The notes beneath the pieces were generated by a model. That model did not search any database. It saw only the letters and a list, made by a program, of their open reading frames with translations, and was not told where the DNA came from. From NCBI RefSeq assembly GCF_001854805.1, contig NZ_MBLO01000261.1, positions 1-64,000 of the forward strand: a stretch of 64,000 nt of DNA, read 5' to 3'. Positions 1,575 through 59,081 of this stretch are shown piece by piece. How positions within the stretch are numbered: the stretch's first letter is position 1; each line of letters begins with the position of its first letter. Both the position numbers and the translations under genes were made by a program. Source of the DNA: Pseudofrankia coriaricola (GTDB lineage Bacteria; Actinomycetota; Actinomycetes; Frankiales; Frankiaceae).

Positions 1575-4500
1575 GTGTCGATATACAGGGCTGCGGTCCA
1601 AGAGGCGCTGCCTGACTACGAGGTGGGCGACACACTCGGCCAGGGTGGGTTCGGACTGGTCTTCGACGGGCGTCATCGGGCCATGGGACGCCGCGTCGCG
1701 ATCAAGGTGCTGACACAGCCGGGCCAGCAGGACCGGTTCCTGCGTGAGGCGCGGGTGCTCGCCGACCTTGACCACCCGCACGTCGCCCGGGTCTTCGACT
1801 ATCGCGAGAGCCCGGAGCAGCAGCTCCGTGTTCTGATCATGGAGCATCTGTCCGGAGGCACCCTGAAGGACCGGCAGCGGACGAACAGGCTGGCTCTGGA
1901 GGAGTCCTGCGTGGTGGGGATCGCCATTGCCGAGGCGCTCGAGTACGCGCACACCGCTGGCGTGCTGCATCGGGACATCAAGCCGGACAACATCCTGTTC
2001 GCCCGCGACGGGACGCCGAAAGTCGCCGACTTCGGCATCGCGAAGATCCTCCAGGAGGGCAAGGGAAGCTACGTGATCGGTAGCCCGGGCCACATGGCGC
2101 CCGAGCAGTTGGGCCCGGGTGAGCTCGGCCCGGCCACCGACGTCTACGCCCTTGGTGTGGTGCTCTATCGGCTGTTGTCCGGCCGGCCGCCATTCGACCC
2201 CGCCCTGACCCTGTTCGAGCTGTGGCAGACCCAGGTGAGCACCCGCCCGCCCGAGCCAGTCGCGCCCGAACCCATCGCCAAGGTGGTGATGAAGGCGCTC
2301 GAAGCCGACGTCGTGCGGCGTCACGGGACGGCCCGTGAATTCGCGCTCGACCTGGCGCGGGCGGGCGCTGGCGCCTTCAGACCGGGCTGGCTGACCCGGC
2401 CCGGAATACTCCTGTGGGCGAGCGATGACATCCGCACGGCCGCCCAGCCGGCTCCCGTCCTGCCGGCTCCGGCTCAGCCGGAGCTCGTCCCCGCGTCGGC
2501 TCACAAGCCCCGACAGGTCCCACCCCCCGCGCCGAAGCCGAAGGGCGAGAGCCCCCGGGACGGCGACACCCCCGTCAGCACACGGCCGCATCCCGTCTCA
2601 CGACCGAGTGACCCGCCGCGCGGACAGGCGAACGAGGGTCTGTTGGGCAGGGACCTGACCGACGCGGACCTGTCGGGTCGGAATCTGACCAATGCGGACC
2701 TGTCGGGTCGTGACCTGGCCGGCATCCGCCTGACCGGCACCACGCTCGCCGGTGCCGTGCTGCGCGATACCGTTTTGACCGGCGCCCTGCTCGACCACGT
2801 CTCGCTCGTCGGCGCGGACCTGACCGGGGCCGACCTGAGCGCCGCGCGGCTCGTCCACACCGACCTGGCCGGGGCAGTGCTGGACAGCGTCCGTTGGACG
2901 CGGGCGGCGCTGCTGTCCTGCGCCGTCGACCCCGCTGCCCTGATGGGTGACGAACTGGCGTCGGCCGCGGTCACCGGCCGCGATCCGGCGACGCTCATCA
3001 TCCCGCCCCCGCCCGCGTCGCTGCGCTCGATCGCTGTAGATCCGTGGGGTGGCCTCCTCATGTCCGCGGGCCAGGACGGCGCGCTGCGGCTGTGGGAGGC
3101 ATCCAGCGGGCGGCTGATCCGTGTTCTCACCGGTCATGTCGGTGCCGTCAACGCGGCGGCGTTCTCACCCCGCGGCGCTCGGGCGGCCTCCGCGGGTGCC
3201 GACCACACGGTGCGGCTGTGGGAGACGTCCACAGGACGCGAGATCGGCCTACTCACCGGGCACCACCTGCGCAGCGGTACCCCGAGCCCCGTGAACGCGG
3301 TGGCGTTCTCCCCGGACGGCATCCTGATCGCCTCGGGTGGCGACGACGGCGCGGTTCGGCTGTGGGAGACGTCCACTGGACGCCAGATCGGCCCGCTCAC
3401 CGGTCACACCGGTGCGGTGAACGCGGTGGCGTTCTCACCGGATGGGCGTCTGGTCGCCTCGGGCGGCGACGACCAGACGGTGCGGCTGTGGGAAACGGGC
3501 AGCGGGACTCTGCTTTACCAGCTTACGGGCCATACAGGCGCGGTGAACGCGGCGGTGTTCTCCTCAGATAACCGTCTGGTCGCCTCGTGCGGCGAGGACA
3601 AGGCGGTGCGGCTCTGGTATGCCGCCAACGGGCGGCCGTACCACCTGCTCACCGGTCATTCCGGTGCGGTGAACGCGGTGGCGTTCTCGCCGGATGGCCA
3701 CCTCATCGCCTCCGCCGCGACCGACAAGATCGTGCAGCTGTGGGACACCGCGAGCGGGCGGCCGCTTTACCAGCTCACGGGCCATACAGGCGCGGTCAAC
3801 GCGGTGGGGTTCTCCGTCGATGGCCGACTGATCGCGTCCGGTGGCGACGACGCCGTTCTCCGGCGATGGGAGACAGCGAGCGGGCGGCCACTCTCGTACA
3901 CAACGAGCCTCGCCACGGCGGTGTCGACGGTCGTGTTCTCCGCGAACCGTGCGCTGCTCGCCTCTGCCGGTGACGACAACGCGGTCCGGCTGTGGGAGCG
4001 GTCCACAGGGCGCCAGCTGCACCTGCTCACCGGTCACTCTGACGTGGTGAACGCGGTGGCGTTCTCCCCGGATGGCCGCCTCCTGGCCTCCGGCGGTGAC
4101 GATCACGCCGTGCGGCTGTGGGAGACCTCCGGCGGACGCGCGCTGCGCCAGCTCGGCGGGGACTGCGGCCGGGTGCGCGCGCTGGAGTTCTCAGCGGATG
4201 CCGCCCTGCTGGCCTGCGCCGGTGACGACAAGAAGGTGCGGCTGTATGACACCGCTGGCGGGCAGGCGCCGCGCCAGCTCACCGGCCACAAGGACCGGGT
4301 GAACGCCGTGGCGTTCTCACCGGACGGCAGCCTGCTCGTTTCTGGCGGAGAGGACAGGACGGTGCGGCTGTGGGAAACGGCCAGTGGCCGCCAGCTACGT
4401 CGCCTCGCGGGTCACGAGGGCACGGTATTGGGACTCGCGTTCTCCCCGACCGAGCATCTGCTTGCCTCGGGGGGCGGCGAGGGCATGGTGCGGCTGTGGG

Positions 4501-4967
4501 AGCCCGTCGTCGCGTCCCAGGGTGTCCCGCTCGCCGGCCACGTCGGACCGGTGAACGCGGTCGCGTTCTCCCCGGATGGCCGCCTGGTCGCCTCCGCCGG
4601 GGAGGACGGCACGGTGCGGCTGTGGGACGTGGCTGGCGGGCGCCAACTGAGCCAGCTCACCGGTCCGGCGGGACCGGTGAACGCGGTGGTGTTCTCGCCG
4701 GAGGGCCGGCTGGTGGCCGCGGCGGGCGCCGACGGGACGGTGCGGTTGTGGCGGACGGATGGGGGGCGCCCATACGCGATCCTGATGGGGCTTGGTGACG
4801 GGTGGGCGGTCCTGCTGCCCGGCGGCTCCTACAAGATCGCTGGCGATGGCGCCGGCGACGCGTTCTGGTGGGCCGTGAACGCCGTCCGGTTCGATGCCGG
4901 TGTGCTTGACGAGCACTTTCGCTCGGTCCGAAGGCTGTCCGATGACCGCGCGCTGCCTCAGGTCTGA
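1575..4967 (+). CDS. serine/threonine protein kinase with pentapeptide and WD40 repeats
   Basis: A 1130-residue soluble signalling protein. Residues about 14-270 form a canonical Hanks-type kinase: glycine loop LGQGGFG, VAIK lysine, HRDIKPDN catalytic loop, DFG and an intact MAPEQ segment. A Pro/Lys-rich linker follows, then about 17 pentapeptide repeats (A[DN]LSG type, residues 355-440), then fourteen WD40 blades (about 478-1072; typical unit AVNAVAFSPDGRLVASGGDD), enough for two seven-bladed propellers. No membrane segment is present. Start: GTG at 1575, 13 codons before the kinase fold; the Shine-Dalgarno is weak, so upstream starts cannot be excluded. Domain order suggests that phosphotransfer is controlled by, or targeted through, a large protein-binding scaffold; partners are unknown. 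Confidence 0.9.
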   Translation: MSIYRAAVQEALPDYEVGDTLGQGGFGLVFDGRHRAMGRRVAIKVLTQPGQQDRFLREARVLADLDHPHVARVFDYRESPEQQLRVLIMEHLSGGTLKDRQRTNRLALEESCVVGIAIAEALEYAHTAGVLHRDIKPDNILFARDGTPKVADFGIAKILQEGKGSYVIGSPGHMAPEQLGPGELGPATDVYALGVVLYRLLSGRPPFDPALTLFELWQTQVSTRPPEPVAPEPIAKVVMKALEADVVRRHGTAREFALDLARAGAGAFRPGWLTRPGILLWASDDIRTAAQPAPVLPAPAQPELVPASAHKPRQVPPPAPKPKGESPRDGDTPVSTRPHPVSRPSDPPRGQANEGLLGRDLTDADLSGRNLTNADLSGRDLAGIRLTGTTLAGAVLRDTVLTGALLDHVSLVGADLTGADLSAARLVHTDLAGAVLDSVRWTRAALLSCAVDPAALMGDELASAAVTGRDPATLIIPPPPASLRSIAVDPWGGLLMSAGQDGALRLWEASSGRLIRVLTGHVGAVNAAAFSPRGARAASAGADHTVRLWETSTGREIGLLTGHHLRSGTPSPVNAVAFSPDGILIASGGDDGAVRLWETSTGRQIGPLTGHTGAVNAVAFSPDGRLVASGGDDQTVRLWETGSGTLLYQLTGHTGAVNAAVFSSDNRLVASCGEDKAVRLWYAANGRPYHLLTGHSGAVNAVAFSPDGHLIASAATDKIVQLWDTASGRPLYQLTGHTGAVNAVGFSVDGRLIASGGDDAVLRRWETASGRPLSYTTSLATAVSTVVFSANRALLASAGDDNAVRLWERSTGRQLHLLTGHSDVVNAVAFSPDGRLLASGGDDHAVRLWETSGGRALRQLGGDCGRVRALEFSADAALLACAGDDKKVRLYDTAGGQAPRQLTGHKDRVNAVAFSPDGSLLVSGGEDRTVRLWETASGRQLRRLAGHEGTVLGLAFSPTEHLLASGGGEGMVRLWEPVVASQGVPLAGHVGPVNAVAFSPDGRLVASAGEDGTVRLWDVAGGRQLSQLTGPAGPVNAVVFSPEGRLVAAAGADGTVRLWRTDGGRPYAILMGLGDGWAVLLPGGSYKIAGDGAGDAFWWAVNAVRFDAGVLDEHFRSVRRLSDDRALPQV

Positions 4968-43159: not shown

Positions 43160-46100
43160 CTACGCCCCGGGTAGCGGGGGCAGGGCTTCCCAGTTCCGGG
43201 CCATACGTTCCAGCTCCGCCTTTACACCGGCCGGGCGTATCCACCCGTAGCCGGAGTATTGCAACTGGCGGAGCAGGCTGTCGACGTCCGTTTCGGTCCA
43301 CGAGGGCCTACCCCGGCGGGAAAGACCCAGCCGGATCTGCTGTTCCGAGACTTCGCCCCGCGGCGGCAGGCTGCCCGCAACGGGAGTGTGCAACGTCAGG
43401 AAGGTTTCGAGATGGGGCCTGACGCCCTCGTCCCAGTCGGCCGGGTCCCGGGCCTCGAGCTCCCAGTCGATCTCCCACACCCGCACCGTCCGGTCGTCGC
43501 TGCCGGACAGGGCGAGGCGCCCGTCGGCGCTCACACACACCGAGGTCACCTCGCTGGTGTGTCCGGTGAGGGTGTGCAGGCAGTGGCCGGTGGCCAGGTC
43601 CCACACCCGCACCGTCCGGTCCTGGCTGCCCGACAGGGCGAAACGGCCGTCGGCGCTCACGCACACCGAGTACACAATCCCAGTGTGTCCTTTGAGGGTG
43701 TGCAGGCAGTGGCCGGTGGCCAGGTCCCACACCCGCACCGTCCGGTCCTGGCTGCCCGACAGGGCGAAACGGCCGTCGGCGCTCACACACACCGAGTACA
43801 CCCCAAAAGTGTGTCCTTTGAGGGTGTGCAGGCAGCGGCCGGTGGCCAGGTCCCACACCCGTACCGTGCAGTCCTTGCCGCCGGATACGGCGACACGCCC
43901 GTCGGGGCTCGCACACACCGAGGTCACGGCCTTCAGGGCCCCGTTCAGGATGGCGGTGTGTCCTTTGAGGGTGTGCAGGCAGCGGCCGGTGGCCAGCTCC
44001 CACACTCGCACCGTGTTGTCGTGGCTGCCGGACAGGGCGAGACGCCCGTCGGCGCTCACGCAGACCGAGTTCACCTCCCCGGCGTGTCCCTGGAGGATGC
44101 GTAGGCAGCTGCCGGTGGCCAGGTCCCACACCCACACCGTGCTGTCATTGTCGCTGGACAGGGCGAGACGCCCGTCCGAGCTCACGCAGACCGACTTGAT
44201 ACCAAAAGTGTGTCCGTTGTCGAGGGTGTGCAGACAGCGGCCGGTGGCCAGCTCCCATACCCGCACCGTGTTGCCGAGGCTGCTGGACAGGGCGAGACGC
44301 CCGTCCGCGGCCACACACACCGAAGTCACGTTGCCGTGTCCGTCGATGATTCTCGACTGCCAGATGCCGCGGACACCGGTTCTTACCGAGAACAGTGAAA
44401 GCCGTCGCCAGGTTTCCAGGGCTCGCGGGTCCCGCTCGTACCCCGGTATCGTCCGCGCCTTTCTGAGCAGGGTGAGCGCGGCCGGGAAGCGGCCCTCCGT
44501 GGTAGGAAGCTCGGCCGCGCTCAGCAGCGTCTCCAACTGTGTTTCATGCCGCACCAGCTCGGCATGTGGACGCAGGCGGCACAGCTGGAGCGAGGCGACA
44601 TCGGCCCCCACGTTCGGCAGCTCCCACACCCGCACCGTCCGGCTGTAGCTACTGGACAGGGCGATGTGCCCGTCCGCGCTCACACAGACCGACTGCACGT
44701 TCCCGGTGTGTTCTTGGAGGGTGCGTAGGCAGTGGCCGGTGGCCAGGTCCCACACCCGCACCGTCCGGTCGTCGCTGCCGGACAGGGCGAGACGCCCGTC
44801 GGCGGTCACACACACCGAGTTCACACCGCCGGTGTGTCCTTTGAGGGTGTGCAGGCAGTGGCCGGTGGCCAGGTCCCACACCCGCACCGTCCGGTCGTCG
44901 CTGCCGGACAGGGCGAGACGCCCGTCGGCGGTCACACACACCGAGTACACCAAAGAAGTGTGTCCTTCGAGGATGTGCAGGCGGCGGCCGGTGGAGAGCT
45001 TCCGCACCCGCACCGTCCGGTCGTCGCCGCCGGACAGGGCGAGACGCCCGTCGGCACTCACACACACCGAGTTGACGTCCCCGGTGTGTCCTTTGAAGGT
45101 GCGTAGACGGCGGCTGAAGGTGCGTAGGCGGCGGCCGGTAGCCAGCTTCCACACCCGCACCGTCCGGTCGTCGCTGCCGGACAGGGCGCGCCGTCCATCG
45201 GCGCTTACGCAGACCGAGTTCACGGTAGACGTGTGTCCTCGGAAGGTGCGTAGGCGGCGGCCGGTGGCCAGGTCCCACACCCGCACCGTCCGGTCGTCGC
45301 CGCCGGACAGGGCGCGACGCCCGTCGGCGGTCACACACACCGAGTTCACGTCCTCGGTGTGTCCTTCGAGGACGTGCAGGCAGCGGCCGGTGGCCAGGTC
45401 CCACACTCGCACCGTGTCGTCGTGGCTGCCGGACAGGGCGAGACGTCCGTCGGCACTCACACAGACCGAACTCACGGCAGACGTGTGTCCTTCGAGGGTA
45501 CGTCGACGGCGGCCGGTGGCACCATCGGCGCGGGCACGTCGCAGCGCCGCGCGGACTTCGGTGTCCTCAGGGGCGCGCCGCGCCGCCTCCTCGAGGAGAG
45601 GAAGGGCCGAGTCGACGTCGCCGCGCTCGAGGTGCACCTGGGCAAGCAGCCGCTGCATCAGCGCGCGCCGCGCCGCCTCCGCGGGGACCTTGAGGACAGG
45701 AGGGGGCACGTCGACGTCGCCGCGCTCGAGGTGCACCTGGGCAAGCAGCCGCTGCATCAGCGCGCGCCGCGCCGCCTCCGCGGGGACCTTGAGGACAGGA
45801 GGGGGCACGTCGACGTCGCCGCGCTTGAGGTGCGGCTGGGCAAGCGGACGCGGCACCGGCCCGGGGTCTGGTGCACTCGCCAGGACCGCCTCGAGTCTGG
45901 CCACCAGCTCGCTGTCGGTCATCCTGCCTGCCCGCCAGCGCAGCAACCCGGCGTTGTAGGTCGCCTCCAGGTGCTGCGGGTCGGCCGTCAGCGCCTCATC
46001 GAACAACATCTCCGCCTGCTTGACCCGGTCAAGGTCCAGCATCGACAGCGCCCGGTTGGTCAGCTCATCCGCCCGAAGCTCCGCCTCCCGCGGCGCCGTC

Positions 46101-52989: not shown

Positions 52990-53055
52990 ACTGTCGTACT
53001 AGACAGTGTTTGGGTCGTCACATGAAGATCGTCGGGGGTCGCTGGTGTGTATAGT
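52990..53055 (+). promoter_or_regulatory. toxin-antitoxin promoter region with inverted repeat
   Basis: ACTGTC-GTACTA-GACAGT (52990-53007) is a perfect six-base inverted repeat, and TATAGT (53050-53055) is a strong -10 with the antitoxin ATG (53062) just six bases after it, so the message is leaderless. The repeat is a candidate antitoxin operator. Confidence 0.5.
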
Positions 53056-53061
53056 ATGCGC

Positions 53062-53298
53062 ATGGCGAGGGTGAACATCACGGTGCCTGATGATCTTCTC
53101 GTGCGCGCGAAGGCGGCTGGTGTCAACGTCTCGCGGGTGACCGCGGCCGCGCTGGTCGAGGAGCTCGACCGGCAGGCGAAACTCGCCGAGCTGGACGCAT
53201 ACCTTCTCGAACTGGAGAACGACCTCGGACCGATCCCCGCCGACGAGGCGGCTGCCGCCCGTGACTGGGCTGACCGCCTCCAGAGGCACTCCCGATGA
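53062..53298 (+). CDS. type II antitoxin, CcdA-like
   Basis: A 78-residue antitoxin. The N-terminal ribbon-helix-helix (ARVNITVPDDLLVRAKAAGVNVSRVTAAALVEEL) binds DNA; the acidic C-terminus (ELDAYLLELENDLGPIPADEAAAARDW) would wrap the toxin. ATG 53062 fits the leaderless promoter; an ATG two codons earlier is possible. It overlaps the PIN toxin gene by four bases (ATGA), the usual antitoxin-first order. Confidence 0.85.
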   Translation: MARVNITVPDDLLVRAKAAGVNVSRVTAAALVEELDRQAKLAELDAYLLELENDLGPIPADEAAAARDWADRLQRHSR

Positions 53299-53681
53299 CG
53301 CTCGTCCTCGACTCGGGCGGCCTGTCGGATCTGGTGCACCACCGCGCGCGGCTGGCCGAGCTACGCGCCCGCGGGCTTTGGCCCGCGCAGGTCCCGGTCG
53401 TGGTCCTGACCGAGGCTCTCACCGGCAACCACCAACGTGACTTCCACACGAACAGGCTGCTGCGGGCCTGCCAGGTCCGCGAGGTCGACGAGCTGTTGGC
53501 GCGCGAAGGGGCCAGGGTTCGGACCGCCACCGGGCGTGCCGGATCCATCAGCGCGACCGACGCCATCGTCGCGGCCTTCGCGGCAACCCAGCATGATCCG
53601 GTCATCCTCACGAGCGACCCCACCGACCTGGCCGCTCTCACGGCACACACCGCCCAACCGGTCGCGGTTCAGGCGGTCTAA
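53295..53681 (+). CDS. PIN-domain ribonuclease toxin
   Basis: A 128-residue PIN (VapC-like) protein. Acidic metal-binding residues are seen in LVLDSGGLS (Asp 6), LTEAL (Glu), SATDAIVAAFAAT (Asp) and ILTSDPTDL (Asp), consistent with an Mg-dependent RNase that cuts tRNA or rRNA. Starts inside the antitoxin stop. Length and motif spacing are normal, so the pair looks functional. Confidence 0.85.
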   Translation: MTLVLDSGGLSDLVHHRARLAELRARGLWPAQVPVVVLTEALTGNHQRDFHTNRLLRACQVREVDELLAREGARVRTATGRAGSISATDAIVAAFAATQHDPVILTSDPTDLAALTAHTAQPVAVQAV

Positions 53682-53750: not shown

Positions 53751-53987
53751 TCAGCCATCCGTTGAGAGGCGACTGACCGTGGCGGCGATGCTCTTCTCGA
53801 ACGCGTCGTCCGGCGGAGTCGTGCCCGCAAGGGCGGCCCGCAGGTCAGCGCCGGTCCGCCTGCGCGTCGGGCCAATTTCCGCGATCGGTCGATGGCCACC
53901 GGTGATCGTGATGGTCTCGCCAGCCGCGACCGCGTCGAGCAGGCCGGAGAACCTCCGCGAGGCATCGGTCGCCGTCATGGTCCTCAT
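53751..53987 (-). CDS. orphan Phd/YefM-family antitoxin
   Basis: About 78 residues: MTATDASRRFSGLLDAVAAGETITITGGHRPIAEIGPT is the prevent-host-death fold, followed by RTGADLRAALAGTTPPDD. No toxin follows: only about 70 bases separate its stop from the end of the PIN gene on the other strand. Start is ATG 53987 or 53996. A TCTGA-AAA-TCAGA palindrome (54003-54015) lies directly upstream. Either a solitary antitoxin or the survivor of a lost pair. Confidence 0.75.
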   Translation of the reverse strand: MRTMTATDASRRFSGLLDAVAAGETITITGGHRPIAEIGPTRRRTGADLRAALAGTTPPDDAFEKSIAATVSRLSTDG

Positions 53988-54002
53988 GGTCATCAAGTCT
54001 TG

Positions 54003-54015: not shown

Positions 54016-54347
54016 TTCTGGCGACGCGGGCCGCGTCGCTGCTCGGCGCGGTAGCCGCCTCCCGGACCGCCGGCGCCCGCGCGGCATAAATCCCTGACGT
54101 CATGGCGGCCGGGGGCGCTACGGTTGACCTCGCTCCCGGCTCACGGACGGGCTGGCAGCGGATGGTCCGACCGTGGGCAGAGGAGCGATCCGCATGGGCT
54201 TCGTCGGGGCGGCGCGCCGACCGAGGTAGCCGAGCCGTCCGTCGAGGGTGGCTCGGCCTCGATCGCCGCTGACCGCCGCGCGCCGTCAGCCGACCGCCCC
54301 CAGACGACGCGGCCTCGCGGGCCGCCTCGACGTGACGGAGCCTTCCG
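54016..54347. other. intergenic region before proS, 332 bp
   Basis: No gene. Positions 54029-54057 resemble 56088-56116 downstream of proS (26 of 29 bases). AGGGTGGCTCGG at 54245-54256 superficially recalls a T-box but lacks the conserved ACCGCG. GGAG eight bases before the proS ATG is its ribosome site. Confidence 0.45.
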
Positions 54348-56081
54348 ATGAACGCGTCTTCCCGCGTGCATTTTCTTTCCCGTGTCCTCGTCCGGACGCT
54401 TCGCGACGACCCGGCGGAGGCCGAGACGGCCAACCACCGGCTGCTGGTGCGCGGCGGGTACATCCGCAAGGCCACCTCCGGCGTGTACAGCTACCTGCCG
54501 CTCGGGCTGCGCGTCCTGCGCCGGATCGAGGACGTCGTGCGCGAGGAGATGACGGCGGCCGGGTGCCAGGAGCTGCTGATGCCGGCGCTGATGCCCCGCG
54601 AGCTGTGGGAACGCACCGGCCGGTGGGACCGCTACGGCGACCTGATGTTCCGCGTGACGGACCGCAAAGGGACCGAGCTCTGCCTGGGCCCGACGCACGA
54701 GGAGCTGGTCACCAGCCTGGTCGCGGGCGAGGTCGGAAGCTACCGCGACCTGCCGCTGCGGGTCTTCCAGATCCAGACCAAGTACCGCGACGAGCTGCGG
54801 CCGCGTGCCGGTCTCCTGCGCTCCCGGGACTTCGTCATGAAGGACGCCTACAGCTTCCACGACGGCCAGGACTCGCTGCGTGAGACCTACCGGGTGATGT
54901 ACGACGCCTACGAGCGGGTCTTCGCGCGCTGTGGGCTGCGGTTCCGCGCCGTCGAGGCGCAGGCCGGCGAGATCGGCGGCGACGTGAACCACGAGTTCAT
55001 GGCGCCCACCGAGGTCGGCGAGGATCTCGTCGTGTACGCGCCCGCGGGCACCTATGCCGCGAACCTGGAGGCCGCCACCTGCGCCCGCCCGGCGCCGGTC
55101 GAGTCGGGGACCCGTCCGCTGCTCCGCGCTCACACACCGGGGGCGCGCAGCGTCGACGAGGTGGCCGGGTTCCTCGGGATCCCGGCGAGCCAGATCCTGA
55201 AATGCCTGCTCTACAAGATTCCGGACGGCGCGGGAACGGAGGTCGTGGCCGCGCTGTGCCCGGGCGACCGGGAGGTCAACGAGCACAAGCTCGCGCGGGT
55301 GCTCGGCGCGGTGCCCGTCCTCCTGGACGCCGCCGACTTCGCCGCGCACCCCGCTCTGGTGCGCGGGCATGTCGGCCCGGTCGGGCTCGCTCCCCACGTC
55401 GCCAGGATCGTCGCGGACCATCACGTGACGACCGGCCGTGACTGGTGCGCCGGCGCGAACGAGCCCGACCACCACCTGACCGGCTGCAACCACGGACGCG
55501 ACTTCGAGCCGGACGAGTGGGCCGACATCGTCGACGTCCGCGCCGGCGACCCGTCCCCGGACGGCAGCGGACCGCTCGCGGTCGAACGCGCCGTCGAGAT
55601 CGGGCACATCTTCCAGCTCGGCACCAGATACACGGTGCCGCTGGAGGCGACGTTCCTCGATGCCGCGGGCAACGACCTGCCGATGGTGATGGGCTGCTAC
55701 GGGATCGGGATCAGTCGCCTCCTGTCTGTGGTGGTCGAGCAGCACCACGACGAGCACGGCATCGTCTGGCCGGCGTCGCTCGCCCCGTACGACGTCGCGG
55801 TGATCCCGCTGGGCCGCAAGGTCGACCCGACCGTCGTCCAGGCCGTTACCGACGCGCTCGCGGAAGCCGGTCTCGACGTTCTCGTCGACGACCGCCCGGG
55901 CGGCTCTGCCGGCGTCCGGTTCGCCGACGCCGACCTCATCGGCTGCCCTTACCAGGTCATCGTCGGCCGGCGCGCGGCCGAGGGCATCGTCGAGCTCCGC
56001 TCCCGCGACCGCTCCGTCGTCACCGAGACCCTCGTCGACGACCTGGTCACGGCTCTCGCCCGCCTCCGCCACGCCCACTGA
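54348..56081 (+). CDS. proS: prolyl-tRNA synthetase, bacterial type
   Basis: A 577-residue class II synthetase that charges tRNA-Pro. Seen are the N-terminal catalytic part (LRVLRRIEDVVREEM, CLGPTHEELVT), motif 2 (KYRDELRPRAGLLRSRDFVMKDAYSFH), a YbaK-like editing insert (about residues 225-385, with KCLLYKI and GANEPDHHLTG), motif 3 (MGCYGIGISRLL) and the anticodon-binding C-terminal domain (VIPLGRK...DDRPGGSAGVRFADADLIGCPYQVIVG). ATG 54348 follows GGAG. A fossil of part of its editing insert lies at 56100-56174, so there was once a second copy or a duplication event. Confidence 0.95.
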   Translation: MNASSRVHFLSRVLVRTLRDDPAEAETANHRLLVRGGYIRKATSGVYSYLPLGLRVLRRIEDVVREEMTAAGCQELLMPALMPRELWERTGRWDRYGDLMFRVTDRKGTELCLGPTHEELVTSLVAGEVGSYRDLPLRVFQIQTKYRDELRPRAGLLRSRDFVMKDAYSFHDGQDSLRETYRVMYDAYERVFARCGLRFRAVEAQAGEIGGDVNHEFMAPTEVGEDLVVYAPAGTYAANLEAATCARPAPVESGTRPLLRAHTPGARSVDEVAGFLGIPASQILKCLLYKIPDGAGTEVVAALCPGDREVNEHKLARVLGAVPVLLDAADFAAHPALVRGHVGPVGLAPHVARIVADHHVTTGRDWCAGANEPDHHLTGCNHGRDFEPDEWADIVDVRAGDPSPDGSGPLAVERAVEIGHIFQLGTRYTVPLEATFLDAAGNDLPMVMGCYGIGISRLLSVVVEQHHDEHGIVWPASLAPYDVAVIPLGRKVDPTVVQAVTDALAEAGLDVLVDDRPGGSAGVRFADADLIGCPYQVIVGRRAAEGIVELRSRDRSVVTETLVDDLVTALARLRHAH

Positions 56082-56099
56082 GCGCCCGGCCGCGTCGCT

Positions 56100-56174
56100 G
56101 CTCCGCGCGGTGCCCGTCCTCTTGGACGCCGCCGACATGTCCACGCACCCCGCCTTGGTGCGCGGGCATGTCGG
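56100..56174 (+). repeat. 75-bp fossil copy of an internal proS segment
   Basis: 56100-56174 matches 55301-55375 in about 67 of 75 bases; it would read VPVLLDAADMSTHPALVRGHVG versus VPVLLDAADFAAHPALVRGHVG in proS. It lies 18 bases after the proS stop and ends just before hpnH, with no flanking proS sequence. Confidence 0.75.
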
Positions 56175-56193
56175 GTGGGGCCGGCGAGGCGCG

Positions 56194-57315
56194 CTACGCG
56201 TCGATCTTCTGGGGTGTGTCGGCTGTCGCGGCCGGCGACTCCTGCCGGGGGACGGTCACGGTCGCCTGCTTGCGCTTGCCGCCGAGCAGGGCCGGCACGA
56301 CAGCCGGCGCGGCGGAGCTGCCGGCGGCGCGGATCGACTCGCGCAGCGACGCCATGGTCGCGGAGAGCGCGGTCGGCTCGTAGCCGCAGTGCGCCATGCA
56401 GTTGTCGCAGCGCGGGTCACGGCCCCGGCCGTACGACTCCCAGTCCGTGGTCTCCAGCAGCTCCTGGTAGGACTTGGCGTAGCCGTCGCCCATGAGGTAA
56501 CAGGGCTTCTGCCAGCCGAACAGCGAGTAGGACGGAATTCCCCAGGCCGTGCACGGGAAGTCGACCTTGCCCTCGAGGAAGTCGAGGTACAAGGGCGAGT
56601 GGTTGATCCGCCACCGGTTGCGGCGGCCCCCGGCGAACGCGTCGCGGAACAGCTTCCGGGTCTCCTCGACGCCCATGAACTTGTCCTGACCGGGCGCCTT
56701 CTCGTACGCGTAGGCCGGCGACAGCATCATCCCGTCGACCTTCAGGTCGTTGTTGAGGTAGTCGAGCACCTCGATCACGGTCTGCGGGGTGTCGGTGTTG
56801 AAGAACGTCGTGTTGGTGGTGACCCGGAAACCGCGCCGCTGCGCGTCCCTGATGGCGTCCACGGCCTGTGCGAAGACGCCCTGCTTCGCCACCGACTCGT
56901 CGTGGCGCTCCTCGAGACCGTCGATGTGCACCGCGAGCGACAGGTACGGCGACGGCCGAAGCTTGTCGATCTTCCTGGGCAGAAGCAGCGCGTTGGTGCA
57001 CAGGTAGATGAACTTCTTCCGCTTCACCAGGCCGGCGACGATCTCCTCGACCTGCGGGTGCATGAGCGGCTCGCCGCCCGCGAGGCACACCACCGGCGCG
57101 CCGCACTCGTCCACGGCGGCCAGCGCCTGCTCTACCGGCATGCGCTGCTTCAGAATGTCCGCCGGGTGCTGGATCTTTCCGCAGCCCACGCAGGCGAGGT
57201 TGCAGGCGAACAGCGGTTCCAGCTCCAGCGTGATCGGAAACTTCGTCCGCCCCGCGAGTCGCTGCTTCAGAATGTACGCGCCGATTTTGATCGCCTGACG
57301 CCGGGGAATACTCAT
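56194..57315 (-). CDS. hpnH: adenosyl-hopene transferase HpnH (radical SAM)
   Basis: A 373-residue radical SAM enzyme that joins adenosine to diploptene in extended hopanoid synthesis. CNLACVGC near residue 38 is the CxxxCxxC 4Fe-4S motif; conserved CLAGGEPLMHPQ, VHIDGLEERHD and FPCTAWGIPSYSLFGWQKPCYLMGDGYAKSYQELL are typical of HpnH. ATG 57315 follows GGGAAGGG. The C-terminal 40 residues are variable. It stands alone without shc, hpnG or hpnO, so the rest of the hopanoid pathway must lie elsewhere. Confidence 0.93.
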   Translation of the reverse strand: MSIPRRQAIKIGAYILKQRLAGRTKFPITLELEPLFACNLACVGCGKIQHPADILKQRMPVEQALAAVDECGAPVVCLAGGEPLMHPQVEEIVAGLVKRKKFIYLCTNALLLPRKIDKLRPSPYLSLAVHIDGLEERHDESVAKQGVFAQAVDAIRDAQRRGFRVTTNTTFFNTDTPQTVIEVLDYLNNDLKVDGMMLSPAYAYEKAPGQDKFMGVEETRKLFRDAFAGGRRNRWRINHSPLYLDFLEGKVDFPCTAWGIPSYSLFGWQKPCYLMGDGYAKSYQELLETTDWESYGRGRDPRCDNCMAHCGYEPTALSATMASLRESIRAAGSSAAPAVVPALLGGKRKQATVTVPRQESPAATADTPQKIDA

Positions 57316-57651
57316 CTGCGCCCTTCCCGCCGTTGTTCAACAGCCGTCCACTGGGTGGCCGCGCCTCCCTTTGCTCGGTCACCCTAAGCGAGCGGTTTCT
57401 TCGGCGCCGGGTGCAAGGATGTCGTGGGAAGGATGTCGCGAACACCGAGTACGCCCGTCGGCCGCCGATACGTCCGTGGCGCCGATCCTGGCTGCTCGTG
57501 GTTCGGCGGACATCGTGTCCGGCTGTTGGCTTCTTGTGGCTGCGGGTGGTGAAACGGCGTGGCTTTGGGCCGCGCGAAAGGGATCTGCTCGCAGCCTGGA
57601 ATGATCTCGTCCTGTCGGAGGAAACAACCGTCACGAGTGATGAGTCGTAGG
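57316..57651. other. intergenic region, 336 bp
   Basis: Between the hpnH start and the 3' end of the TIGR03086 gene. Contains GGATGTCG twice (57417, 57431). A plus-strand open frame of about 100 codons is Arg-rich, lacks a ribosome site and resembles no family; not called. Confidence 0.45.
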
Positions 57652-58221
57652 TCAGTGCGGTGCGAGGGAGCGGCCGACGAAGGCCAGCAACCGCCGGTGG
57701 GCGGGGGCGTCGGCTGGGACGGGGACCGCGGAGCCGAACATGCCCGGCCGGCGGAAGATGTCGAAGTCCATGCCCTGCATGATCGTGAGCAGTTCGGCGC
57801 ATGCGCGTTCGTCGACGAGATGCCCCTGGCCGGTGGCGATCGCCAGGTCGGCTCCGTGGACCAGGACCTCGGTGAGGTGGATGAGCGCGGCCATCGTCCC
57901 GGGGACGGCACCGAACCCGAGGCACACCGTCGTGTCCAGCACGTTGGGGCGGTGCCAGGCCGCGCGGTCGAGGTCGGCCGCGGTGGCGAAGGCGGCTGGC
58001 GGGTTGGCACCGAGCCAGTCGGCGTCGTGGTCGGCGCCGGCGTCGGTCGCGGTGAGCTCGGCCGTGAAGATCCGCATACCGCCCGCCAGGTGGTTGAGCT
58101 CGGCGCGCACATCCCAGTCCGGGCAGGGCGTGGGGGCGGCGAACTGGTCGTCGGTGATGCCTTTGACGATGGCGGCGGTCATGTCGAGGGCACGGTTGAT
58201 CTGGTCGATCACGCTGGTCAT
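57652..58221 (-). CDS. TIGR03086 family metal-binding protein (DinB/MDMPI-like)
   Basis: A 189-residue four-helix-bundle protein: INRALDMTAAIVKGITDDQFAAPTPCPDWDVRAELNHLAGG contains the PCPDWDVRxLxxH core that binds metal in this actinobacterial family, related to mycothiol-dependent isomerases and transferases. LIHLTEVLVHGADLAIATGQ carries the second histidine pair. It faces the TetR gene across 239 bases, so it is the probable target of that regulator. Confidence 0.87.
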   Translation of the reverse strand: MTSVIDQINRALDMTAAIVKGITDDQFAAPTPCPDWDVRAELNHLAGGMRIFTAELTATDAGADHDADWLGANPPAAFATAADLDRAAWHRPNVLDTTVCLGFGAVPGTMAALIHLTEVLVHGADLAIATGQGHLVDERACAELLTIMQGMDFDIFRRPGMFGSAVPVPADAPAHRRLLAFVGRSLAPH

Positions 58222-58301
58222 GTCGTGGTCCTCAGGAGTCGAGGTGATTCAGGCGGCTTTGGCCAGGACGTCGTGAGGCCAGCCGTGAACGCGGGTGAAA
58301 G

Positions 58302-58453
58302 CCAGGCGCTGGGCGCCTGGGCTGGCAGGGTCTCGGTGCTCTGGTCGGCGGTGAGAACAGGGCTCCCCGATCGACGCTAAGGCAGTTAGTGGCTGCTTTA
58401 AGGGCACGATAATAGACAGACTCGGTCAAACGCAAGTCTGGGCTGCGTTAAGG
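58302..58453. promoter_or_regulatory. hairpin and repeated sites between the TIGR03086 and tetR genes
   Basis: CCAGGCGC-TGG-GCGCCTGG (58302-58320) is a perfect eight-base hairpin in the TIGR03086 leader. GGCTGCTTTAAGG (58391-58403) and GGCTGCGTTAAGG (58441-58453) are direct repeats 50 bases apart, the second six bases before the TetR ATG, and AAGGCAG/CTGCTTT (58380-58398) forms an imperfect inverted repeat. These are candidate TetR sites serving both genes. Confidence 0.45.
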
Positions 58454-58460
58454 TGGCGGC

Positions 58461-59081
58461 ATGTCGGAACCACGGCCGACTCGCCGGCCCGGCGGACGCA
58501 GCGCCCGCGTCCGCGCTACGGTGCACCGGGCGGTCACCGGCCTGATCGTCGAACGCGGCTACGGACACTTCACGGTGGGCGATGTCGCCACCCGCGCCAC
58601 CGTGGCCGACAGCAGCATCTACCGCCGCTGGGGCACCCTCGAGACCCTGCTCACGGATGTGGCGATCACGTGGCTGACCACGACCTCCCCCATCCCCGAC
58701 ACCGGCGGCCTGGAACAGGACCTGCGTACCTACGCCGCCAACGTCGCCCGCGACCTCACCGGCCCCGACGGGCTGGCGGTGCTACGCCTGGTCATCGCCC
58801 TGTCGTCGGCGGGAGAGGCCGGCATACAGGCGCGGGATGCGTTCCTGGCGGAACGCGGACGCCAACTCCAGGACATGCTGGATCGCGCCCTCGACCGAGG
58901 CGAACACCCACCAGAGGGCCTGGACATCCTCGACCACATCCTGGCCCCGATGTACGTTCGCGTGCTGTTCGGCGCCGGGCCGCTCACCCCCGCCTACACC
59001 GACACGCTGGTCGACCGCCTGCTGGCTCTTCGCGGCTACTCGGCGGACCCACTCAGGAGGAGCGGTAGAGCTCAGGACTGA
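58461..59081 (+). CDS. TetR family transcriptional regulator
   Basis: A 206-residue repressor. The N-terminal HTH is VRATVHRAVTGLIVERGYGHFTVGDVATRATVADSSIYRRWGTLETLLTDVA; the ligand-binding C-terminus belongs to the TetR_C_11-like group (VLRLVIALSSAGEAGIQARDAFLAERGRQLQDMLDRAL). AAGGTG precedes the ATG. Divergent from the TIGR03086 gene and convergent with the thioesterase-like gene. Confidence 0.9.
   Translation: MSEPRPTRRPGGRSARVRATVHRAVTGLIVERGYGHFTVGDVATRATVADSSIYRRWGTLETLLTDVAITWLTTTSPIPDTGGLEQDLRTYAANVARDLTGPDGLAVLRLVIALSSAGEAGIQARDAFLAERGRQLQDMLDRALDRGEHPPEGLDILDHILAPMYVRVLFGAGPLTPAYTDTLVDRLLALRGYSADPLRRSGRAQD

Follow-up and report, generated by a model that had tools for sequence, protein, structure and literature searches.

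Directly behind the stop codon of an intact prolyl-tRNA synthetase gene (proS), the window, a 64,000-nucleotide stretch of DNA from an 11.2-Mb Frankiaceae genome in 280 contigs (G000), carries a short proS fossil. This fossil is a genuine short self-copy, seen in this lineage alone, and, judged from the sequence, most likely a template-switch product. Taken as a whole, the reading to which we lean, by a modest degree, is that one internal proS segment was copied locally and in this lineage specifically, most likely by template-switching, and that the hairpin carried by the copy may terminate transcription.

Partial copies of an internal proS segment

The proS gene (54348-56081, plus strand) encodes a bacterial-type prolyl-tRNA synthetase of 577 amino acids with an editing (YbaK-like) domain. 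The fossil (56091-56174, plus strand) is a partial copy of a segment within the part that encodes this domain (55292-55375, plus strand), with 73 of 84 positions identical (87%). An earlier note on this DNA had described an 89 percent copy of an internal proS segment at 56100-56174, and our count agrees (67/75 identical to 55301-55375, 89%); in an ungapped search the match between proS and the fossil reached 106 nt at 80%. Divergence is higher in the left part of the fossil (56080-56104) than elsewhere in it. The 29-bp imperfect direct repeats that were said to bracket proS were likewise recovered (54029-54057 and 56088-56116, 26/29 alike). The left repeat forms the first 29 bp of an upstream partial copy (54029-54075, plus strand), located 2 kb away from the fossil and 83% identical to 56088-56134 over 48 aligned columns. 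The sequence GGCCGCGTCGCTGCTC is common to the upstream repeat and the fossil, and proS does not have it at the corresponding place; this shared sequence indicates that the proS segment, the fossil, and the upstream repeat form one family of partial copies. The diverged left part of the fossil and the shortness of the upstream copy would be compatible with more than one order and number of copying events.

With the stretch 56078-56193 as the query, the whole genome yielded three matches at E≤1e-3. Besides the query's own locus, these were proS (103 bits) and, at 44.6 bits (E 4.9e-5), 54029-54075. In eight genomes of the genus (approximately 72 Mb; 40 of 76-169 candidates scored per genome), the best match that was neither a proS gene nor the fossil locus scored 40.1 bits. 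The upstream repeat exceeds every unrelated match that was scored, and therefore composition alone does not explain it. Furthermore, no copy of the fossil was found among the 40 candidates scored in each of the seven other genomes of the genus. The two ordinary explanations that the earlier note had allowed for, a direct repeat expected by composition and a fossil present unchanged in all relatives, are thus at odds with these data.

We also looked for other self-copies in the vicinity of their sources, as same-strand pairs of at least 70 bits within 5 kb, across 305,620 bases, 83.9 kb of them from the contig of the window. Such pairs occurred in three parts of the contig that are rich in repeats (3.0-4.8, 40.9-41.4, and 43.4-45.9 kb), at one place in each of two other loci (L130 and L133), and as the pair of proS and its fossil. 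Long internal direct-repeat arrays, approximately 66-84% alike, were observed in the window at 43469-45520 and 3063-4757.

Palindrome in the source and in the copy

The source segment contains an imperfect palindrome (55333-55375). Of its 18 possible pairs, 15 are Watson-Crick in proS, compared with 10-13 in five orthologues. Its counterpart in the fossil (56132-56174, no strand assigned) has 18-nt arms and a 7-nt loop, and forms 16 Watson-Crick pairs plus one G-U pair. The fossil copy ends at 56174, which is the end of its own palindrome and one base short of the counterpart of 55376, the end of the palindrome in proS. Over their 43 bp the two palindromes differ by six changes. Three of these coincide with the three mispairs and mend every one of them; another disrupts an existing pair, and the remaining two are in the loop. 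Of the four changes in the arms, three lie within a run of four consecutive positions on a single arm. Grouped changes that make the arms more complementary (three of three mispairs mended, one new mispair) are what a product of quasipalindrome template-switching displays. In simulations of six random changes, 0.02-0.14% of the runs matched the mending (two models and two criteria, with 200,000 runs for each model), the test having been devised after the pattern was seen. The predicted RNA fold of 56120-56180 has an energy of -37.6 kcal/mol (z -3.8, with 0 of 200 shuffles as good), and the parental proS segment folds at -35.5 kcal/mol, which indicates that the copy was hairpin-prone before any mending.

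The presence of a palindrome in the source, the end of the copy at the end of that palindrome, and the mending of three mispairs fit template-switching during replication. We infer both the mechanism and the order of the two copies, as follows. A nascent strand would have stalled at the hairpin of the imperfect palindrome in the editing-domain coding part of proS and re-annealed approximately 800 bp away, immediately behind the proS stop codon, where 84-106 bp would have been copied until the base of the hairpin was reached. An additional short copy would have been laid down upstream of proS, and the palindrome inside the fossil would have been mended by quasipalindrome correction.

Hairpin-driven template-switching with palindrome correction is described in Escherichia coli in PMC7202029. 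The case presented here resembles the E. coli quasipalindrome mutation in that an imperfect inverted repeat gains complementarity through changes in one arm, but the palindrome that was mended here is part of a copy at a new position, not the one at the original place, and the mechanism is deduced from one sequence. Template switching has also been proposed as a source of RNA hairpins, as outlined in PMC8794818, where, as here, slippage during replication creates or repairs a stem of possible relevance in RNA; in contrast to those hairpins, the present stem is an intergenic hairpin derived from a coding sequence, with a candidate function.

Age of the copy

Two sites bear on the time of copying. 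At 55312, T is present in proS, the fossil, and the upstream copy, and C in all five orthologues (G001, G002, G003, G006, and G009). Position 55355 is C in the fossil and in four of the five orthologues (all four of the genus), and T in proS; the outgroup G009 agrees with proS in having T, which makes the direction of this change less sure. In the simplest reading, copying would be younger than the split from G006 and would predate the last change in proS. The former bound comes from one site, 55312, and the latter from one site of less sure direction, 55355.

Gene order around proS

Upstream of proS, the window contains genes for a CcdA-like antitoxin and a PIN-domain protein (53047-53681, plus strand); the former matches PF07362 above the cut-off (E 1.6e-6), and the latter matches PF01850 marginally below it (23.5 bits, cut-off 23.6). 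A Phd/YefM-like antitoxin gene (53754-53996, minus strand), above the NCBIfam cut-off and below the Pfam cut-off, lies directly upstream of the left repeat, and DNA resembling this gene was found at other places in G001 and G002. Downstream, and convergent with proS, is hpnH (56194-57315, minus strand), which encodes an adenosyl-hopene transferase (TIGR03470, 517.4 bits, cut-off 225.05). Two genes, of the mycothiol-dependent isomerase family and the TetR family, occupy 57531-58970 between hpnH and the next block.

For the comparison of gene orders, H denotes hpnH, P denotes proS, and B and T denote the flanking blocks; from the sequence, we take B to be a carboxylase/dehydrogenase block, and T is the block from 59.1 kb on. 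The order in G000 is B, the CcdA-like and PIN genes, P, the fossil, H reversed, the isomerase-family and TetR genes, and T reversed. In G005 the order is B, H, T, and the aligned blocks are separated by 47 and 21 bp; P is absent, and so are the isomerase and TetR genes, in whose place there are only the 21 bp. The orders are B, H, P, T with P inverted in G006, and B inverted, P, T in G001-G003. G004 has B, a CcdA-like/PIN stretch, 2.5 kb of other sequence, and H, and lacks P. The slot between B and H is therefore different in all four genomes in which B lies beside H (G000, G004, G005, and G006). DNA resembling the CcdA-like antitoxin gene also lies approximately 470 bp before the P block in G001, and this shared neighbourhood suggests that proS is no recent arrival in G000; on this comparison, the position of proS in G000 looks old and that in G006 derived. 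Behind proS, G006 has eight perfect copies of a 12-bp unit (L006:3286-3381), followed by a long perfect inverted repeat from position 3380 of L006.

The stretch shared with G006 spans 54078-56044, and homology on the hpnH side restarts at 56178 (G004 and G006) or 56190 (G005). The upstream copy ends at 54075, 2 bp before the homology to the proS block of G006 begins at 54078, and the fossil ends at 56174; both copies thus sit at homology joints. Such positions are also what would be seen if proS had been inserted or swapped by recombination between short repeats, with the direct repeats as scars of integration or of target-site duplication, and the different placements of proS in G000, G006, and G001-G003 would suit this as well. 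We regard insertion or exchange as improbable, because the antitoxin-like DNA in front of proS in G001 makes the G000 position look old, the repeats are 26/29 alike and are themselves pieces of proS, and synonymous distances give no sign of replacement (see below). No transposase or integrase was present among the seven window proteins searched by family, and G005, whose empty site was the one read for a scar, had no copy of the repeat there. The suggestion in the earlier note of duplication or recombination at this spot holds in part: a stretch of proS was duplicated and the region was rearranged between relatives, but neither a second full proS nor a gene replacement is borne out.

Descent and constraint of proS

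The protein encoded by proS matches TIGR00409 with 598.9 bits (curated cut-off 306.7) and PRK09194 with 722.9 bits (cut-off 558), and carries the class II core, editing, and anticodon-binding domains (PF00587, PF04073, and PF03129, all above cut-off); the nearest solved chain is 5znj. It resembles the bacterial-type enzymes (TIGR00409; chains 5znj and 2j3l) in the full-length match with all three domains and differs from them in being an accessory beside an archaeal-type enzyme (TIGR00408).

The dN/dS values of proS were 0.208 to G006, 0.289-0.313 to G001-G003, and 0.191 to G009, which indicate, at the level of the sequence, that proS is under purifying selection, as expected of a functional gene. 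The dS value between G000 and G006 was 0.193 for proS, compared with 0.189 for hpnH, 0.199 for the carboxylase, 0.160 for the dehydrogenase, 0.131 for the T gene, and 0.138 for the archaeal-type prolyl-tRNA synthetase (for the carboxylase and the archaeal-type synthetase the rate tests were run without G005, whose sequence has N). The proS value is similar to those of the neighbouring genes (0.131-0.199), which fits vertical descent and argues against the replacement of proS through recombination that had been proposed earlier. In the tree, proS likewise groups with G006, its nearest proS-bearing relative. The archaeal-type synthetase had a lower dN/dS between G000 and G006 (0.155 vs 0.208 for proS) and a lower dN to G001 (0.046 vs 0.167). 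These values indicate that proS is constrained yet faster-evolving.

In a 101-row tree, the Frankia proS clade is set apart from other actinomycetes. A clade test on 47 of the 101 rows did not reject one common actinomycete clade (p-AU 0.715), and because common descent was kept we do not claim a xenologous origin for proS. The trees were built by a quick method with L026 and L027 left out, and L038 and L039 duplicate G003 and G009 in the 101-row tree; of 155 loci, the best 80 were kept.

Two types of prolyl-tRNA synthetase

The search of the genome for a second proS, as the earlier note had advised, did find another prolyl-tRNA synthetase, but it is of the archaeal/eukaryotic type (TIGR00408, 493 bits; G000:C239:25299-26621, L002, ORF 847-2253), and searching the whole genome at the protein level revealed no further bacterial-type proS stretch. 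The archaeal type (TIGR00408) was above the cut-off in 32 of 35 Frankiaceae genomes and the bacterial type in 9; six genomes had both types, 26 the archaeal type only, and three (G009, G010, and G013, of which G010 is 63% complete) the bacterial type only. By this distribution, the bacterial-type proS of the window is evidently a patchy accessory in the Frankiaceae, intact and constrained alongside a different, near-universal prolyl-tRNA synthetase. G009 (L008 and L039) has the bacterial type only above the cut-offs; its four searched genus-mates have the archaeal type only, one of them with bacterial-type remnants. Degraded bacterial-type proS was found in two other genera, as two pieces in G024 (L149 and L151, one with an inner stop) and as three stretches in shifted frames in G047 (L150); the longer pieces are 65.9-74.3% identical. 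The family is therefore a place where two types of prolyl-tRNA synthetase coexist and substitute for each other, and among the titles and abstract openings listed in the literature searches there was no paper that treats both types together in Frankia.

The decay of bacterial-type proS in G024 and G047 lends some plausibility to the idea that a tandem full-length proS was deleted down to a stub of 84-106 bp, leaving the fossil as its final trace, and the fossil does adjoin proS in direct orientation. We nevertheless consider this origin unlikely: a single internal segment was found, which begins close to the stop codon of proS and runs to the base of the hairpin; the genome lacks a second bacterial-type copy; and the upstream repeat derives from this internal segment too, a placement that simple tandem duplication would not produce. 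A proS pseudogene in the sense of a second full copy was rejected on the same footing, as it requires several proS stretches in gene order and one internal segment was found, twice. The former second full-length proS of the earlier note accordingly reduces to one internal segment of 84-106 bp and an upstream copy of a short part of it.

The hairpin as a candidate terminator

The hairpin at 56132-56174 lies 19 nt past the stop codon of hpnH and 50 nt past that of proS, and may, from its place and fold, be a terminator between these convergent genes, acting on hpnH and perhaps also on proS. The best hairpin score in the 80 nt behind hpnH was 15 here, 14 in G004, 17 in G006, and 12 in G007 (65 nt only in G007), and 8, 6, and 6 in G001, G005, and G008, which have no strong hairpin. 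Among 3000 random 80-mers, 24 reached a score of 15 and 82 reached 12. The window thus has a strong hairpin near a stop codon, and in three of the six other genomes hpnH is followed by a different hairpin scoring at least 12; these start 7, 7, and 16 nt behind the stop codon in G004, G006, and G007, respectively, and their sequences differ by eye. In regards to proS, the best scores in the 80 nt past its stop codon were 7-10 in all five relatives (10 in G006 and G009), a score of 10 being attained by 263 of 3000 random 80-mers. The score here was 7, as the hairpin starts 50 nt downstream of the stop codon and the 80-nt limit truncates it; the long perfect inverted repeat of G006 starts 112 nt past the stop codon, beyond that limit. 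Speaking against termination, a U-tract was found on neither side of the hairpin, both flanks being GC-rich, and a scan for consensus terminators did not list it. The title of a mycobacterial paper cited in PMC8355165 states that the RNA polymerase of these bacteria needs a U-tract.

It is conceivable, although we give it less than even credence, that a copy made by template-switching has become a selected terminator and that its pairs were mended by selection, a reading that overlaps with our preferred one. The distance of 19 nt behind the hpnH stop codon is comparable to those of the hairpins in G004, G006, and G007, but the U-tract is absent and the clustering of the arm changes (three of four in four adjacent positions) suits one mutational event. 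Under template-switching as the source of the mending as well, we tentatively propose, as a speculative extension, that a coding quasipalindrome was copied behind the stop codon of its own gene, was mended in the process, and now terminates two convergent transcripts, such a terminator having been born in one or two mutational steps. If so, hairpins at the end of hpnH that differ among sister strains would be a place to watch the birth of terminators; and if the hairpin does terminate, it would be a datable case of a bacterial terminator derived from duplicated coding sequence whose parent still lies next to it. The titles and abstract openings listed in the literature searches contained nothing on terminators born from gene fragments.

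Comparison with ProRSx and tRNA genes

The Streptomyces mistranslation pair of ProRSx and tRNA-ProX, as presented in PMC10365949, PMC11415595, and PMC9437257, is similar in that an actinomycete has a second prolyl-tRNA synthetase. That tRNA often lies beside its synthetase, whereas the window contains no tRNA, and ARAGORN, applied to each of the 69 places that Rfam marks in the genome, gave no tRNA with an AGC, ATT, or AGT anticodon; an identity of proS with ProRSx was rejected on these grounds. Elsewhere in the genome, 21 tRNA genes of many specificities lie within 3 kb (G000:C11:2197-5145, L182). Several anticodons of this array also occur elsewhere in the genome, and the array is perhaps the cargo of a mobile element.
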